From a bacterium (GTDB lineage Bacteria; UBA9089; CG2-30-40-21; SBAY01), in assembly GCA_040757115.1 (NCBI GenBank), contig JBFLYA010000137.1, positions 1-10,026 on the forward strand: 10,026 nt of DNA, in the 5' to 3' direction. How positions within the stretch are numbered: the first letter of the stretch is position 1; each line of letters opens with the position of its first letter. A model generated the notes under the pieces. The model did not search any database and was not told the DNA's origin. It saw only the letters and a program-made list of their open reading frames with translations. The translations under genes were made by a program, and so were the position numbers. This document shows positions 1,586-10,026 of the stretch, piece after piece.

Positions 1586-1954
1586 TTAGCTCTGGGAATG
1601 TTTATAAACCCGATCAAAAAATTTCTTGCTTACAGAAATAATATATTTTATATCCTCTGTATCTTTATCTTTAAGTAATCCAACTAATTTCTTAATTAAT
1701 AAATCTGATTTAGAAAGTGATTTTATCTTTTGAGGTAGTTCATCCATATTAGTCTTGACAAAATAATCTACATTTACTTCTAAAACTTGAGCAAGCTTAA
1801 CTAATGTTTTTAGGGAAGGATATTTTTCTCCTCGTTCTATTTGACTAATATATCCTGCTTCTAATTCTACCATCTCTCCAAGTTCTTCTTGTGTTAGACA
1901 CATATCTTTCCTTATTTCTCTAATTTTTACCCCTATTTGTTTTCTAATATCCAT
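1586..1954 (-). CDS. XRE-family helix-turn-helix transcriptional regulator
   Basis: This is a 122-residue cytosolic protein. Residues 7-62 form a typical HTH_3 (Cro/CI-like) domain: TQEELGEMV is the positioning helix, AGYISQIERG covers the turn and recognition helix, and YPSLKTLVKLAQVLEVNVDYF is the conserved tail helix. The remaining 60 residues are charged and helical (KSLSKSDLLIKKLVGLLKDK and onward). They may mediate dimerisation and show no recognisable ligand or peptidase motif. The start is supported by a minus-strand Shine-Dalgarno GGAAGG at 1962-1967, 7 nt before the ATG. The gene is transcribed away from the 2264-8437 cluster, whose strong promoter lies about 120 bp beyond this start codon, the usual geometry of an autoregulated local repressor. 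Control of the cluster is inferred from that arrangement only. The HTH call is secure; the target genes are not. Confidence 0.9.
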   Translation of the reverse strand: MDIRKQIGVKIREIRKDMCLTQEELGEMVELEAGYISQIERGEKYPSLKTLVKLAQVLEVNVDYFVKTNMDELPQKIKSLSKSDLLIKKLVGLLKDKDTEDIKYIISVSKKFFDRVYKHSQS

Positions 1955-2795: not shown

Positions 2796-5700
2796 ATGGA
2801 AGTGGTAGTAAAAAGAATAAAGATGCTAATTATCATTATGGGGTGTCTTTTTCTTGTAAATAATGGTTTTGGGAAAGAAGCATTGGGAGCACCTAACTTA
2901 ACCCACTACACCCCTTCTGGCTGGGATTATCCCATTGTGCCATCATCTGTTCCAAATACACATAAGGTTGATACCCTTTACGGTAATCAAACAACATACA
3001 TAGACTGGGCAATTCAAAATAATGGAGATGCTAATGCAACAGGTAGATTTTATACCTACTTTTACATTGATGGGACATATATACAGAGTTGGTACACAGA
3101 TGGTTTATCTTCTGGATATTGGACTTATGTAGATGATTGGCAAAGGACATTAAGTGTAGGCTATCATACCCTAAAGATTGTCATCGATGCAACAAATGCC
3201 ATCTCTGAATCAAATGAGAATGATAATAGCTATGAGAGACAGTTTTATTGGCAAGGGAAGCCAAATCTAACTTACTACACTCCTTCTGGCTGGGATTATC
3301 CTATTGTGCCATCATCTGTTCCAAATACACATAAGGTTGATACCCTTTACGGTAATCAAACAACATACATAGACTGGGCAATTCAAAATAATGGAGATGC
3401 TAATGCAACAGGTAGATTTTATACCTACTTTTACATTGATGGGACATATATACAGAGTTGGTACACAGATGGTTTATCTTCTGGATATTGGACTTATGTA
3501 GATGATTGGCAAAGGACATTAAGTGTAGGCTATCATACCCTAAAGATTGTCATCGATGCAACAAATGCCATCTCTGAATCAAATGAGAATGATAATAGCT
3601 ATGAGAGGCAGTTTTATTGGCAAGGGAAGCCAAATCTAACTTACTACACCCCTTCTGGCTGGGATTATCCTATTGTGCCATCATCTGTTCCAAATACACA
3701 TAAGGTTGATACCCTTTACGGTAATCAAACAACATACATAGACTGGGCAATTCAAAATAATGGAGATGCTAATGCATCAGGTAGATTTTATACCTACTTT
3801 TACATTGATGGGACATATATACAAAGTTGGTACACAGATGGTTTATCTTCTGGATACTGGAGTTATGTAGATGATTGGCAAAGGACATTAAGTGTAGGCT
3901 ATCATACCCTAAAGATTGTCATTGATGCCACAAATGCCATTGTTGAGTCAAATGAGAATGATAATAGTTATGAGAGGCAGTTTTATTGGCAAGGGAAGCC
4001 AAATCTAACTTACTACACCCCTTCTGGCTGGGATTATCCCATTGTTCCCTCATCTGTTCCAAATACACATAGTGTTGATACCCTTTATGGTAATCAGATA
4101 ACTTATATCGATTGGGCAATTCAAAACAATGGAAATGCAAATGCAGCAGGTAGATTTCATACCTACTTTTACATTGATGGGACATATATACAGAGTTGGT
4201 ACACAGATGGTTTATCTTCTGGATATTGGACTTATGTAGATGATTGGCAAAGGACATTAAGTTCAGGCTCTCATACTTTAAAGATTGTCATTGATGCAAC
4301 AAATGCCATTGCTGAGTCAAATGAGAATGATAATAGTTATGAGAGGCAGTTTTATTGGTCTGCCTTACCTGCCTTACCTGATTTAGTGGTTACAAGTTTA
4401 ACCATAACCCCTTCAACCCCTGTCGGAGCTCAACCAGCAGAGATTAAATGGAGAGTAGATAATGATGGTAGTGCAGATATACCTGTCTCCATACGGTTTT
4501 ATACCAAACTCTATATTGATGAGAGTCTAAAAAAGACCTGGTATACTGATGGTTTAAAAACTACTCAATATATCTCTGATACCTACACAGAGACCTTTTC
4601 AATCGGGAGTCATAAAGTAAGGTTAGAAACAGATGTAGATAATGTTGTTTCGGAGTCAAATGAAGATAATAATAAAAAAGAAGACTCATTCACCGTTATT
4701 CGTATCCAACCACCAACAAATTTAACGGCAACTGTTATAGCAAACAACACCGTTAAATTAAACTGGGATTGGTCCTATGATAATTCTGTATTATGGGGAT
4801 TTTATATTTATAGAAGTCAAACTAATAATTTTGTGCCTTCAAATAGTAATTATATTGGTAATACCTCTAATGATGTCCGATATTATGAGGATAGGGGTGT
4901 TCCTAATGTAGGGACTTATTATTACAAGGTAACAGCGGTAGATTGGTATTCTTATCCTCCAGATGATGAAAGTGTTCCTTCAAATCAGGCTTCTGTAATT
5001 ATTACACCGCCGCAAGATATTACTCCTCCTTCAGCACCAACTAACTTAACCGTAACCAATCCACCAGATGATGATGGCACACATCTAAATCTAACCTGGA
5101 CAGCATCAACAGATGATGTCGCAGTAGCCTATTATCGTGTATATGAATCCACATCTCCCAATATATCGGAAGAAATTTATGATGCATATTATGAACCAAC
5201 AGGGAATAGCCTTCAAGCCTATGATTTAATAAAAGGGATAAAGTATTATTACAAGGTATTAGCTATAGATACTTCTGGCAATGAAAGTAGCCTATCCAAT
5301 CGTGCAGAAGGCATACCAAAGGATATAAGGCAACCTGACCCACCTACCAATCTATCTGCAGTTGGTAATGATGGTTATGTGTCTCTCTCCTGGGATTATT
5401 CCTGGGATGCCGGGAAATGGAACATCTACCGCCAGCCGGGTATAAATACATCTGATTATGAGAAGATAGATTATACCTACTCTAATTCCTTTACTGACTA
5501 CAGCGTAACCAATGACACAACCTATTATTACAAAATTAGGGCAGAAAGCTATGAAGGGGTAGAAAGCAATGATTCAAATGTTGTTCAGGCTACCCCAACA
5601 ATGGCAGACCTACCTCCTTCTGCTCCAGCAGGCCTTGCCGCTTATGGGGATAATGAAAGTATTACCTTGGTTTGGAGAAAGGACCATTTTGAACAAGATT

Positions 5701-7196
5701 TTGCCGGTTTTAATATCTATAGGGATGGAACAAAGCAAAATTCCTATCCTATAAAGGAGATGATATATGAAGATAGAGGGCTGACAAATGGTAGAACATA
5801 TAATTATCAGGTCAAAACAGTAGATAAAGGGGATAATGAAAGCATTCCTATTTCAATTGATGCCATTCCTAACCCTGTAAAAGTAAACATTATATCAATA
5901 AATGGATATTCACCAGGAACTTATTATACTGACACCAATAATCCCGAACCTATATACATCGAATACAAACAAGAAGGACAGATAAGTTATATAGAATTTC
6001 AGGTAGTAGATGTTACTGGTGGAAAAGAAGGAAGTATAGTTTATTCTGAGAAAATCTATCAACCGCCCCCTACATTTGTAAAGGGGAATCCGATAATTAT
6101 ATGGGACGGTAAGGATAAGTATAAAGGATATGTACCTCCAGGTGTATATGAATTCAGGTTGGTTGCCTATCAAATATTAGAACCTATAAAGGGGGTATTA
6201 ACTCCACCCATAAAAGAGGTAGGAGAATCACAAACAAGAATACTTCAAAGGACACAAGCGGTATTCAAAGTCCTTAAGGATACTGTCGAAATTAATCCCG
6301 GGGATTCAAAGATAAAAAAGATAGCTTATACTACCTTGGACTATGCTCCTTGTGGTGATGCGAGGGATATAGCCGCTCAAATATTCAGTGGTTTAGCAGG
6401 AGAGGATATAAATACATTTGTCTTAGTGGTAGCGGGTGTAGGGTTTATACTTGATGTAGGACTACCTGGTTTTCCTGGTGATGATATAGTCATAAATGTA
6501 CTTAAGAAGATAGGTAAAATAATTCCTTTTCAGGCAGCAGGAAAGCTTGGAGAGGTAGGAATGGATTTGTTGATGAAAAACAAAGAGGCTTGTGGTCATC
6601 TATTTGGTTTCTTAAGTAAGAATGAAGACCTGGCGATAAAACTTCTCAAGACCTCAGATGACGCTCAACAACTCGGCGAATTCTTTGTTAAATATGGGGA
6701 TGAGGGAGGAACATTGCTTAAGAAGTTTGGCGATGATATGGCCGATGAGGCGTTTGAGGTGTATAAGAGGGGTGGGGAGTTAAAAAATACAAGAGGTATA
6801 GCAAAAGGAATTAAAGGAGTAGGTTGGCTTGAAGAAGGAAATGAATCTTTCGGCTGGAAACATATATTTGGTAGGCATATAGATGGTACTTTAGAAGTAA
6901 ATATTTCTGCTTCTTTCTTCCCAACAGGAAGAAGAATAGAAAGGGCGATCCCTAAAACATTACCAAATGTAATGAAAGATAGTGAAGTAGAAGAGTTAAT
7001 ATATGAAAGCATTAGAAGAGTTGACCCTATAATAAGTGGGGATAAGTTAAAATATATTTACCAACCTTCTAAATACGGTATCGATGAAATGTGGACTATT
7101 ACTACTCAAGAAGGTAAAATAATTACTACCTACCCAATAAAAGGTCCAAATGTGTGGAAGTGGAATGTTGATAAACAAATATGGGAATTACAATAA
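2796..7196 (+). CDS. Exported CARDB/FN3 stalk protein with C-terminal EndoU/BECR-like RNase toxin domain
   Basis: This 1466-residue protein has modules in this order: Sec signal peptide (about 1-26, VKRIK then a hydrophobic core); four CARDB repeats of exactly 123 residues (33-155, 156-278, 279-401, 402-524) and a diverged fifth (525-636), each with a DxDN or DATN motif and an SNENDNS-like ending; four FN3 domains (about 638-738, 742-840, 846-934, 939-1024); a FlgD-like Ig (about 1028-1125, with IIWDGKD and PPGVYEFRLVAY); a helical segment with a hydrophobic stretch (1207-1222) resembling pre-toxin regions; and a C-terminal domain from about 1335. That domain has GWKHIFGRH (His1356, His1361), SFFP (1373-1376) and GKIITTYP (1440-1447), an order typical of EndoU/BECR-fold RNases in polymorphic toxins. 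The toxin activity is inferred. The ATG at 2796 follows AAGGAG (2778-2783) at a long 12-nt spacing. The next gene begins one base after the stop. No surface-sorting domain is present at the C-terminus. Confidence 0.85.
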   Translation: MEVVVKRIKMLIIIMGCLFLVNNGFGKEALGAPNLTHYTPSGWDYPIVPSSVPNTHKVDTLYGNQTTYIDWAIQNNGDANATGRFYTYFYIDGTYIQSWYTDGLSSGYWTYVDDWQRTLSVGYHTLKIVIDATNAISESNENDNSYERQFYWQGKPNLTYYTPSGWDYPIVPSSVPNTHKVDTLYGNQTTYIDWAIQNNGDANATGRFYTYFYIDGTYIQSWYTDGLSSGYWTYVDDWQRTLSVGYHTLKIVIDATNAISESNENDNSYERQFYWQGKPNLTYYTPSGWDYPIVPSSVPNTHKVDTLYGNQTTYIDWAIQNNGDANASGRFYTYFYIDGTYIQSWYTDGLSSGYWSYVDDWQRTLSVGYHTLKIVIDATNAIVESNENDNSYERQFYWQGKPNLTYYTPSGWDYPIVPSSVPNTHSVDTLYGNQITYIDWAIQNNGNANAAGRFHTYFYIDGTYIQSWYTDGLSSGYWTYVDDWQRTLSSGSHTLKIVIDATNAIAESNENDNSYERQFYWSALPALPDLVVTSLTITPSTPVGAQPAEIKWRVDNDGSADIPVSIRFYTKLYIDESLKKTWYTDGLKTTQYISDTYTETFSIGSHKVRLETDVDNVVSESNEDNNKKEDSFTVIRIQPPTNLTATVIANNTVKLNWDWSYDNSVLWGFYIYRSQTNNFVPSNSNYIGNTSNDVRYYEDRGVPNVGTYYYKVTAVDWYSYPPDDESVPSNQASVIITPPQDITPPSAPTNLTVTNPPDDDGTHLNLTWTASTDDVAVAYYRVYESTSPNISEEIYDAYYEPTGNSLQAYDLIKGIKYYYKVLAIDTSGNESSLSNRAEGIPKDIRQPDPPTNLSAVGNDGYVSLSWDYSWDAGKWNIYRQPGINTSDYEKIDYTYSNSFTDYSVTNDTTYYYKIRAESYEGVESNDSNVVQATPTMADLPPSAPAGLAAYGDNESITLVWRKDHFEQDFAGFNIYRDGTKQNSYPIKEMIYEDRGLTNGRTYNYQVKTVDKGDNESIPISIDAIPNPVKVNIISINGYSPGTYYTDTNNPEPIYIEYKQEGQISYIEFQVVDVTGGKEGSIVYSEKIYQPPPTFVKGNPIIIWDGKDKYKGYVPPGVYEFRLVAYQILEPIKGVLTPPIKEVGESQTRILQRTQAVFKVLKDTVEINPGDSKIKKIAYTTLDYAPCGDARDIAAQIFSGLAGEDINTFVLVVAGVGFILDVGLPGFPGDDIVINVLKKIGKIIPFQAAGKLGEVGMDLLMKNKEACGHLFGFLSKNEDLAIKLLKTSDDAQQLGEFFVKYGDEGGTLLKKFGDDMADEAFEVYKRGGELKNTRGIAKGIKGVGWLEEGNESFGWKHIFGRHIDGTLEVNISASFFPTGRRIERAIPKTLPNVMKDSEVEELIYESIRRVDPIISGDKLKYIYQPSKYGIDEMWTITTQEGKIITTYPIKGPNVWKWNVDKQIWELQ
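2892..4367 (+). repeat. Four tandem 369-bp CARDB-encoding repeats
   Basis: Units start at 2892, 3261, 3630 and 3999, each exactly 369 bp (123 codons). Units 1 and 2 are identical over 305 bp (2934-3238 versus 3303-3607). Unit 3 has scattered changes, such as a Ser for Thr codon at the GDANA(T/S)G site. Unit 4 has more, and a fifth unit from 4368 is recognisable only as protein. The gradient suggests successive duplication towards the N-terminal end, or gene conversion. Confidence 0.95.
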
Positions 7197-7197
7197 G

Positions 7198-7749
7198 ATG
7201 GAGAGTAAAAATATAGAAGTTTGTTTTAGAATAGAGGAAATTATCTTAAATTTGATAGGCGATGGTTGTTATTCCAATAATGTTCCTATTTCTTTTTGTG
7301 TAGGGAATAAATTAGCAGTTCAATTGTGTTTACGTTCTTTTGATTTAAAGGTAAAAAATTATTTAATCAAAAATATAAAATACATTAGTAATAAAAATTA
7401 CTATGAAATTAACGGAGAAATACTGTCTTTATTAGAAGCCTATTCTTGGCGAGATTTGTTAATAGATTGTGGGGTCCCTATTAGAGTTTCGGTAAATAAA
7501 GAAGAAGAAAAACTACTTTATGTTAAAAAAGGAGAATATTTATCAGGAACTGGATATTTATATGGTGATTTTGAATCAATATGGGAAAATAATCATTTAA
7601 TCCAAAAAATTGAAGGGAGGATTGTAAAAATAGAAGAATGTTTAAAATCAGAGAGAGAAATTTGTCTACAGTCACGAGAGATTAATGAATTCAAAGCAGA
7701 TATTCTTACTCAAAATTCAATTTACATTACATTGGGGATAACCAGATGA
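7198..7749 (+). CDS. Putative immunity protein paired with the upstream toxin domain
   Basis: This is a 183-residue soluble protein with no signal peptide or membrane segment; I do not recognise its family. Visible features are an alternating beta-like N-terminal part (about 5-75), the stretch AYSWRDLLIDCGVPIRV (81-97), a Gly-rich EYLSGTGYLYGDF segment (113-125) and IEGRIVKIEECL (138-149). The ATG at 7198 lies one base after the TAA of the toxin gene, suggesting translational coupling. Only a weak GGGA (7183-7186) precedes it. In-frame ATGs at 7150 and 7165 would overlap the toxin gene and are less likely. A small cytosolic protein encoded directly after a C-terminal toxin domain is the standard position of a cognate immunity protein, and that is the sole basis for the function. 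The gene is very AT-rich (10 G/C in 7321-7380). Confidence 0.6.
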   Translation: MESKNIEVCFRIEEIILNLIGDGCYSNNVPISFCVGNKLAVQLCLRSFDLKVKNYLIKNIKYISNKNYYEINGEILSLLEAYSWRDLLIDCGVPIRVSVNKEEEKLLYVKKGEYLSGTGYLYGDFESIWENNHLIQKIEGRIVKIEECLKSEREICLQSREINEFKADILTQNSIYITLGITR

Positions 7750-7780
7750 GAAGAGAAAGATTTATGAGGAAGGTTTTATT

Positions 7781-8437
7781 ATGGAAATGCTGACTTTTTT
7801 AAGTTTCTGGAGATTAATAGTCTTTCAGCCAAAGAAATTTTTTAGGGAATATTTCCGGGAGGAATCTTCACCATATCTTTGGTTTACACTTATAATCTAT
7901 GGATTGGCTGTTGAAATTAATAGAATTGACCGGCAATTTGTAAAAGGGGATTTGCAAAATAAATTAGATCAAGGTGAGTTTTTGAATAATTGGTTTAGTT
8001 ATTGGACATTTGCCATAATTATAGGATTGATAATAGGTTATTGTTTTTATAGATTAGGCGGTTGGTTCTTTAATCTACGGGTAAAATGGTCGAAAGGAGT
8101 GCCGAATGTCAAAACAGCAAGATTCATTAATCTTTACTCATGTTTCCTTCCCTGTTTTATTACGGTTTTTGTATCAATTATAGAGACTTTGAGCAAGCCA
8201 AAGCCTTATATTCCTGATGAGCCATTGTTGCCTACGAGAGACCTATTATTAGCTATAATTAGCATACTTGCAAGCTATTATTCTATTTATGTTAGTTATC
8301 AAGGAGTAACGATTGTAATGAAACCAGAAAAATGGAGATGCCGAATATGGTTTCTAATTTTGCCAATACTGTTTTTTTCTTTGATAGCATTGGGAACGAT
8401 GAGTATGTTTTGGGTAATTTTCAGTTTGAAAGGGTAA
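7781..8437 (+). CDS. Yip1-like multi-pass integral membrane protein
   Basis: This 218-residue protein has about five hydrophobic segments: a short one at 31-45, then 70-90, 116-136, 154-175 and 188-213. An N-terminal amphipathic part reads FWRLIVFQPKKFFREYF. The motif of a Pro followed by FF shortly before the first membrane segment, together with the length and spacing of segments, is what bacterial Yip1-domain proteins show. The biochemical role of that family in bacteria is poorly defined. The start is supported by GAGGAAGG (7766-7773), 7 nt before the ATG. It lies 31 nt after the putative immunity gene and probably shares its transcript. It could protect or modulate the membrane in the toxin producer, or simply be a passenger; the sequence does not decide. 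Confidence 0.7.
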   Translation: MEMLTFLSFWRLIVFQPKKFFREYFREESSPYLWFTLIIYGLAVEINRIDRQFVKGDLQNKLDQGEFLNNWFSYWTFAIIIGLIIGYCFYRLGGWFFNLRVKWSKGVPNVKTARFINLYSCFLPCFITVFVSIIETLSKPKPYIPDEPLLPTRDLLLAIISILASYYSIYVSYQGVTIVMKPEKWRCRIWFLILPILFFSLIALGTMSMFWVIFSLKG

Positions 8438-8535
8438 TTATTGAGCGATGAGAGGTTTTAATTCTTCTCTTTGGTATGAGTGGAATTCGTTGAGTAAATT
8501 TGGGAATTTTAATGTTGTTTGGATTATTTTGGATT

Positions 8536-8540
8536 GGAGG
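8536..8540 (+). promoter_or_regulatory. Ribosome binding site GGAGG that sets the NHL-protein start
   Basis: GGAGG lies 9 nt before the ATG at 8550. The frame is open further upstream to an ATG at 8448, which would add 34 residues (MRGFNSSLWYEW and onward) ahead of a good signal peptide. That ATG has no clear Shine-Dalgarno, so the 8550 start is chosen. Confidence 0.7.
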
Positions 8541-8549
8541 AATAAAATA

Positions 8550-10026
8550 ATGCAATACAAGTATTTAGCCTTGGCAATATTAATTACATTATTTCAAAGC
8601 AATGCCTATTCTTTAGACCTTACCAACCCCTATGGAATTGCAACAAATGGTAATTATCTCTATATTGCTGATACGGGTAATTGTCGTATCCTAAGGTGCA
8701 ATTTGGATGGCTCAAACCCCTTAACCTTTGGTAATTTAGGCAAAGGTGCAGGTGAATTTATGCATCCACAAGGTATTGGAGTTACCCCAGCAGGAGATAT
8801 CTATGTAGTTGATACAGGTAATCATCGCATCCAGAAACTAAAGGATAATGGCACAAGTATTACTTTTGTAAAGACAATTGGTTCTGAAGGGCAATCTCCA
8901 GACCAGTTCTTGCTACCCAGAGACATTGCTATTGATTTTAAGAAAAAGTATTTTCTTGTTTGCGATTCAGCCAATCAGAGAATATCAAAATTCGACCTTG
9001 ATGGCAATCCAATAAACTCTTTTTCTAACGGTAATTCCTTTGGTGAATGGGGAACTCAATCTGGGATGCTATGGCATTCCTATGGAATTGACCTGGACAA
9101 TGACGGCAATATCTATGTTGCGGATACTTACAATCATCGCATCCAAAAATTTAGCCCCGACGGAAAGGCTACTTTAAACTTTGGGGGTATGGGACAAGGT
9201 GAAGGACAATTTATTATGCCTGCAGATGTGGTTGTGGATAAAGAGGGCTATATTTTGGTCATAGATACAGAGAACCATAGAGTCCAGAAATTTTCCCCAA
9301 AGGGAATATACATTGAGTTATACGGTAAGTATGGCATAGAGAAAGGCAATCTATTCCTTCCACAAAAGGGAGTAATAAGTATAGAAAACAAACTCTATGT
9401 TATTGATTCAACATTATCTCGATTTGAAGTGTTTAATATATCTACTTATATCACCGATGTCTCAGCCTCTCCTATGTTATTTTCGCCCAATAGCGATGGT
9501 AAGTTTGATACTACGACGATTAGCTACACTATCCCGGAAACAGCCCATGTTACTATAAATATCTATGATAAAGATGGGAATTTGGTAAGAAATTTAGTTA
9601 ACGAAGATAGACCTGCAGGAACTCAGACTAAGGTATGGGATGGCAAAGATGATTCAGATAAAGTAGTCGCAGATGGTGAATATACCTATGTCATTAATGC
9701 AGTCAATGCCTTGAATTATCACGCCCCACAGAAAAAAGGTAATGTCTGGATAGACAACAGTCCACCTGAAATCACAAATCAAAAGGCAACACCTGATATA
9801 GTTATAGTGGGTAATACAGTAACTTTAACGGCTCAAATCACTGATGTTAATGGAATTGCCTCCGCTACTATTAACCTTATGCCTATTTTAAATAATTCCA
9901 ACCAACCAATGTTTGATGATGGGACATACGGGGATGAAATAGCCAATGATGGAGTTTATAGTTATAAAACTACAATACCAAATTCTGTCTTATGTGGAGT
10001 AAAGAGTTTAATTATCAGGGCTGAAG
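8550..10026 (+). CDS. Exported NHL beta-propeller protein with FlgD-like Ig domain (3' partial)
   Basis: At least 492 residues are encoded before the right edge, with the frame still open. Residues 1-21 are a Sec signal peptide (MQYKYLALAILITLFQSNAYS). Six NHL-type blades follow between about 24 and 298, with strands such as YIADTGNCRI, YVVDTGNHRIQKL, FLVCDSANQRISKF, YVADTYNHRIQKF, VIDTENHRVQKF and YVIDSTLSRFEVF; together they would close a six-bladed propeller. A FlgD-like Ig domain spans about 303-388 (SPNSDGKFDTTTISY, VWDGKDDSDKVVADGEYTY). A further Ig-like segment from about 404 includes MFDDGTYGDEIANDGVYSYK, a motif common in choice-of-anchor and Ig-like surface modules. NHL propellers are generally protein or ligand interaction platforms; no enzyme motif is visible. 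It follows the membrane-protein gene by 112 nt, so membership of the same operon is uncertain. Confidence 0.9.
   Translation, partial: MQYKYLALAILITLFQSNAYSLDLTNPYGIATNGNYLYIADTGNCRILRCNLDGSNPLTFGNLGKGAGEFMHPQGIGVTPAGDIYVVDTGNHRIQKLKDNGTSITFVKTIGSEGQSPDQFLLPRDIAIDFKKKYFLVCDSANQRISKFDLDGNPINSFSNGNSFGEWGTQSGMLWHSYGIDLDNDGNIYVADTYNHRIQKFSPDGKATLNFGGMGQGEGQFIMPADVVVDKEGYILVIDTENHRVQKFSPKGIYIELYGKYGIEKGNLFLPQKGVISIENKLYVIDSTLSRFEVFNISTYITDVSASPMLFSPNSDGKFDTTTISYTIPETAHVTINIYDKDGNLVRNLVNEDRPAGTQTKVWDGKDDSDKVVADGEYTYVINAVNALNYHAPQKKGNVWIDNSPPEITNQKATPDIVIVGNTVTLTAQITDVNGIASATINLMPILNNSNQPMFDDGTYGDEIANDGVYSYKTTIPNSVLCGVKSLIIRAE

Follow-up and report, generated by a model that had tools for sequence, protein, structure and literature searches.

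The locus and its stalk protein

The window, meaning the whole analysed stretch of 10,026 nucleotides, is one entire contig (G000:C137) of a genome that is 99.9% complete with 1.4% contamination and whose 16S fits the bacterial model. The host is an uncultured bacterium from a sparsely sampled phylum. An open reading frame at positions 2796-7196 (+) encodes the 1466 amino acid exported protein that a first-pass annotation of this DNA had described. This protein has a signal-like start as well as CARDB and fn3 domains. The signal-like hydrophobic N-terminus (MEVVVKRIKMLIIIMGCLFLVNNGFG) is encoded at 2796-2882 (+), and the protein's most hydrophobic 19-residue stretch begins at residue 3. It is followed by a stalk of CARDB repeats and fn3 domains (2883-6250, +; Pfam CARDB 2.4e-71, fn3 2.5e-12), which is 53-68% conserved in relatives. 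Within it, 3.9 tandem copies of a 369-bp CARDB unit with a 96% match are located at 2905-4358, in addition to one diverged copy. The near identity of these repeats suggests that the stalk was expanded or homogenised recently. Pfam recognizes only CARDB, fn3 and minor matches in the stalk, and no trafficking domain of the CdiA, LXG or Rhs kind. Export is most likely by Sec.

The constant part of a pre-toxin segment comes next (6252-6724, +), wherein DNA identity with a relative ends at 6724. This segment includes the hydrophobic stretch, at about residues 1204-1228, that had been predicted ahead of the tip. The protein then closes with a swappable tip formed by residues ~1310-1466, in which a toxin domain of 146 residues was modelled (6756-7193, +). 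The toxin stop codon TAA (7194-7196) is separated by a single base from the ATG of the next gene (7198-7749, +), in agreement with the spacing claimed earlier. This gene, hereafter 7198, encodes 183 amino acids, has a GC content of 0.27 and is a candidate immunity gene by virtue of its position. Further downstream are genes for a Yip1-domain membrane protein (7781-8437, +; Pfam Yip1 4.4e-13) and for an NHL-repeat / FlgD-Ig protein (8448-10025, +; NHL 9.6e-37).

Just upstream of the stalk gene there is a small gene (2264-2716) for an exported-looking protein of 150 amino acids with a repeated PGVILEIKGEEKIPGF motif. The stretch from 2070 to 2301, which lies mostly upstream of this small gene, is 67% identical to positions 1844-2084 of a locus from the same genus (L102). 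It is possibly a shared control region, and it is located near an ORF at 1586-1954 (-) that by eye resembles an XRE-type regulator.

Family and predicted fold of the tip

The four motifs noticed near the end of the protein, namely GWKHIFGRH, SFFP, YGIDEMWTIT and GKIITTYP, are present in the 1466 amino acid reading frame in the order given originally. Genome contigs were scanned for relatives of the tip with a hand-built degenerate DNA pattern for W-x-E-x-G-[ND]-x6-H-I-x2-R-H, which gave 0 matches in 200 shuffles of the window. There are 53 contigs that match this pattern, 51 of which carry true toxin-like relatives, and they represent haloarchaea, Methanolobus, Streptomyces, Clostridia, Proteobacteria and others. 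Searches of viral contigs with peptide patterns found no relatives of the tip. Whole-domain tblastn recovers relatives with E values from 1e-14 to 2e-4, including haloarchaeal plasmid sequences with 31-34% identity. These plasmid relatives are either the ends of TSP3-stalk proteins or orphan or truncated cassettes, and a gene for 164-174 amino acids is located directly after the tip in four of five. A profile search also yields a relative (GNLQEGWQHIEARHISGT...ITVFP) in a distant bacterial genome of 9 Mb (L065; G046:C51:79507-79791).

The tip belongs to a distinct subfamily, whose other members in this analysis all come from haloarchaea or a methanogen. In the tree, six archaeal tips group with that of the window with support of 100/99, and within this group the window sequence branches as sister to the archaeal ones at 82/73. 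An insert, SF[FW]P-x-GQ...LP, is common to the window tip and the archaeal tips and is absent from the other relatives. The archaeal-type profile matches the bacterial family profile at 97.9% and 4.5e-13; the motif region of this alignment was pattern-selected, yet the alignment continues to the C-terminal strands.

An AlphaFold2 model of the tip, built from an alignment of the relatives on genome contigs, has a pLDDT of 96.4. Its best solved structural match is 7m5f_C (Z 10.1, rmsd 3.2 over 105 residues; Foldseek 1.5e-4), which is the toxin domain (CdiA-CT) of CdiA from Serratia marcescens BWH57 and has been assigned to the BECR fold (PMC8616854). The next matches are BrnT (Z 6.3), colicin D (5.5-5.8), the CDI toxin 8ey4 (5.2) and RelE/HigB (3.4-3.9). 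In addition, a family profile of 39 rows matches 7m5f_C at 1.3e-33, and a smaller profile, compiled ahead of the pattern scan from the tip plus four relatives from haloarchaea, had ranked 7m5f_C first as well, with an E value of 0.19. Structure matches and family profiles thus bear out the BECR-type RNase fold that had been proposed, and the tip is predicted to have the BECR fold of the CdiA-CT (BWH57) family.

The more specific proposal of an EndoU toxin is not borne out. It draws on the T-T-Y-P ending of the tip (T1444-T1445-Y1446-P1447, 7125-7136, +), a strand with alcohol residues that aligns to the terminal [ST/G]-x-[YN]-P of relatives, and the archaeal relatives have weak Pfam EndoU matches (E 0.055-0.094) that fall mainly in the C-terminal half. 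However, the window tip has no match to EndoU (PF14436) at E<=10 and matches no other Pfam family, and the bacterial relatives lean instead to PBECR1 (PF18809), with matches below threshold. The structural matches listed for the tip model are single-core BECR RNases, and EndoU is not among them. Because CdiA-CT BWH57 is the nearest solved relative, being closest in both fold and profile, and because the tip has no Pfam EndoU match, EndoU appears to be the wrong branch, and it is very improbable that the tip belongs to the EndoU family proper.

The candidate active-site residues of CdiA-CT BWH57 are H47, E51, H52 and R89, and its activity was inferred from structure alone (PMC8616854). In the profile alignment, H47 corresponds to H1356, H52 to H1361 and E51 to R1360, all of which are located in HIFGRH (6861-6878, +), the predicted catalytic helix. 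R89 aligns with K1419, a position that is A or E in some relatives and varies among the archaeal-type tips. The invariance of H1356 and H1361 in alignment A6 is no evidence by itself, because the scan pattern imposed the W-E-G-H-H residues. The H-x4-H arrangement is also present in 7m5f_C and in relatives found without the pattern, either by whole-domain search (L003, L005 and L006) or by profile (L065).

We infer that the tip is an RNase. It is improbable that it is instead a BECR-fold domain that has lost its RNA-cutting activity and now functions in adhesion or binding. Such a tip would be consistent with the lack of equivalents of the colicin E5 catalytic residues in BWH57 (PMC8616854), and with a Haloarcula copy of the tip (L007 3515-4420) wherein both histidines have been replaced (YIRERY). 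However, the window tip retains H-x4-H, as do the other relatives that were found independently of the pattern. Moreover, no archaeal-type immunity gene was found near the His-less Haloarcula copy, where tblastn matches are at chance level only. This single case fits the toxin model, since loss of the histidines would remove the need for an immunity gene.

Exchange of the tip together with the following gene

Relatives were searched with the stalk and pre-toxin segment, and their endings were then compared. Two loci in genome G014 have the same pre-toxin segment, with 36-52% identity, and carry other tips. In G014:C142 (L101) the next elements are a tip that starts with NLDSHYQKHV and a gene for 253 amino acids, and in G014:C215 (L100) they are a tip with TDIDV...EAK and a gene for 232 amino acids. 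The latter motif recalls a PD-(D/E)XK nuclease, by eye only. A related stalk from the same genus (G001:C92) ends in a weak SLT/lysozyme-like domain, and no match to the window-type tip was found in these genomes with other stalk endings (G014 and G001).

A blastn comparison of the window with G014:C215 finds positions 6676-6724 in common, after which no similarity is seen across either the tip or the immunity-position gene. Identity is back at 7732, amounts to 91.8% up to 8438 and is 74% in the NHL gene (72-74% across both G014 loci). The constant downstream flank (7732-8438, +) therefore holds the end of the immunity-position ORF and the Yip1 gene, whose product is 87% identical in G014:C215 although it lies there behind an unrelated tip and gene. 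Because the same stalk carries unrelated tips and downstream genes, and because identity resumes at 7732, approximately 6725-7731 (+) behaves as one exchangeable cassette, wherein the tip and the following gene are exchanged as a block. Over this span the window DNA resembles neither L100 nor L101, and the GC content of the cassette is 0.305 versus 0.374 for the stalk and pre-toxin segment. The toxin unit first quoted as starting at 6798 is real, but the swapped unit starts somewhat earlier, where the shared DNA ends at 6724.

The same tip is also found elsewhere, namely on TSP3 stalks (L003 and L006), on Streptomyces and other large proteins, and as an orphan cassette (L005). Relatives with other tips on the same rod, and archaea with the same tip on other rods, indicate an exchangeable cassette of a known general kind. 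These findings uphold the initial view of this domain as a polymorphic-toxin tip.

The immunity-position genes in G014 have a common tail of ~65 bases (IKAE-[AT]-IEKHLGIK; L101 2872-2936 and L100 1611-1675), part of which occurs again in G014:C142 (L101 3653-3683). The window exhibits a decayed resemblance to this tail at ~7717-7750. The tail at the cassette ends may be a recombination tag.

Other stalk ends in this group have features of their own. Lysozyme-like ends are present in this genus and, by eye, in the window's own genome, which is consistent with bacterial targets. The C-terminus of another stalk relative from the same genus (L093 355-3324, -) resembles a caspase/gingipain-like peptidase by eye (SSHGSSG...AACS).

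By raw count, an ORF of at least 70 amino acids starts within 250 bases downstream in 46 of 52 tip relatives, and the tip and downstream ORF commonly overlap by 4 bases. All but one of these 46 ORFs fall into five families, and a single family of 164-174 amino acids follows all six archaeal-type tips examined that have a downstream gene. The 7198 product belongs to none of the five families. It has no family match, its single-sequence structure model has a pLDDT of 39, and no homologues were found in plasmids, viral contigs or 193 genomes, where the leftover matches are short, have E values of at least 0.005 and in several cases contain stops. A likeness to the downstream genes of Halocatena and Natronobiforma was suspected but was not borne out by hhalign.

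Thus, the expectation that a 7198-like gene always follows homologous tips fails in its literal form, although some gene is nearly always present, drawn from other, unrelated families. Unrelated immunity-gene families behind related tips are usual for polymorphic toxins. Because the genes downstream of the relatives are of unrelated families, it is position and co-exchange that point to 7198 as the candidate immunity gene of the tip.

An unlikely arrangement is that the tip is a true toxin whereas 7198 encodes another effector or is a passenger unrelated to it, with immunity provided elsewhere, for example by the Yip1 protein. The absence of a 7198 homologue and its lack of relationship to the family behind all six of those archaeal-type tips are in keeping with this arrangement, as is the presence of Yip1 behind an unrelated cassette. 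However, 7198 begins one base after the tip and is inside the exchanged block with it, whereas Yip1 is outside, and in each of the two G014 loci an unrelated gene takes the place of 7198. Yip1 could hardly provide tip-specific immunity, since it is constant across cassettes.

Proposed function and comparison with known systems

The locus very probably encodes a polymorphic toxin system in which a BECR RNase tip and its immunity gene, 7198, are exchanged together as a cassette. In the proposed mechanism, a Sec-exported CARDB/Fn3 stalk would present the C-terminal BECR-fold RNase tip, which would be released into a competitor upon contact. The tip would then cut RNA, with tRNA or rRNA as its most probable substrate, by using H1356 and H1361 without a metal, such that translation stops in the competitor. 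Inside the producer, the 183 amino acid product of 7198 would bind and block the tip. Tip and immunity gene would be swapped together between the constant pre-toxin segment (to ~6724) and the constant flank (from ~7732).

Systems of this kind are known, and the tip subfamily, the stalk and the immunity-position gene are new variants. The locus reveals that cassettes are exchanged in a bacterial lineage that is uncultured, and on a type of stalk for which no secretion route is recognised. It also ties a solved toxin family whose activity has only been inferred (BWH57) to archaeal cassettes. Two questions become testable as a result: the target that a BWH57-type domain cuts, and the way in which CARDB/Fn3 stalk proteins deliver their tips. 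A bolder and rather doubtful possibility is that this is a cassette lineage that spans domains of life. A subfamily of RNase tips known from haloarchaea and methanogens would also be present on a bacterial CARDB/Fn3 stalk, accompanied by an immunity-position gene that resembles none of those found in this analysis. Its cassette would move as the interval from a constant pre-toxin segment to a recurring tag at the 3' end, and the tip would be delivered by an undescribed route.

Among known systems, CdiA-CT/CdiI of BWH57 (7m5f; PMC8616854) shares the fold of the window tip across 105 residues (Z 10.1), and the two toxins have in common the motif LE-x-GN...G-x-x-HI-x-x-x-H, a terminal location on a long exported protein and a gene in the immunity position. 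However, identity is 16% over the structural alignment, and the window type, unlike BWH57, has the insert GT...SFFPTGRR...LPN and a C-terminal KWN extension. Its stalk is of the CARDB/Fn3 type, whereas BWH57 has a CdiA filament. The product of the following gene has 183 amino acids, against 98 for the CdiI of BWH57, and is unrelated to the immunity-position families of the tip relatives with which it was compared.

The tips of Halorussus, Natronorubrum, Haloprofundus and Methanolobus belong to the same subfamily group, have the same insert and are directly followed by a gene. However, they are on TSP3 stalks or in orphan cassettes, and their downstream family of ~164-174 amino acids is unrelated to 7198. 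The window tip also has the same fold as PBECR1 (PF18809), colicin D, BrnT and RelE, yet it matches no Pfam family. Finally, the VARTIG modules of Thermococcales (PMC8416519) similarly combine a large Ig-domain surface protein that has a variable C-terminus with variable downstream genes. The variable tip of VARTIG is an Ig domain (PMC8416519), whereas that of the window is an enzyme-like domain.
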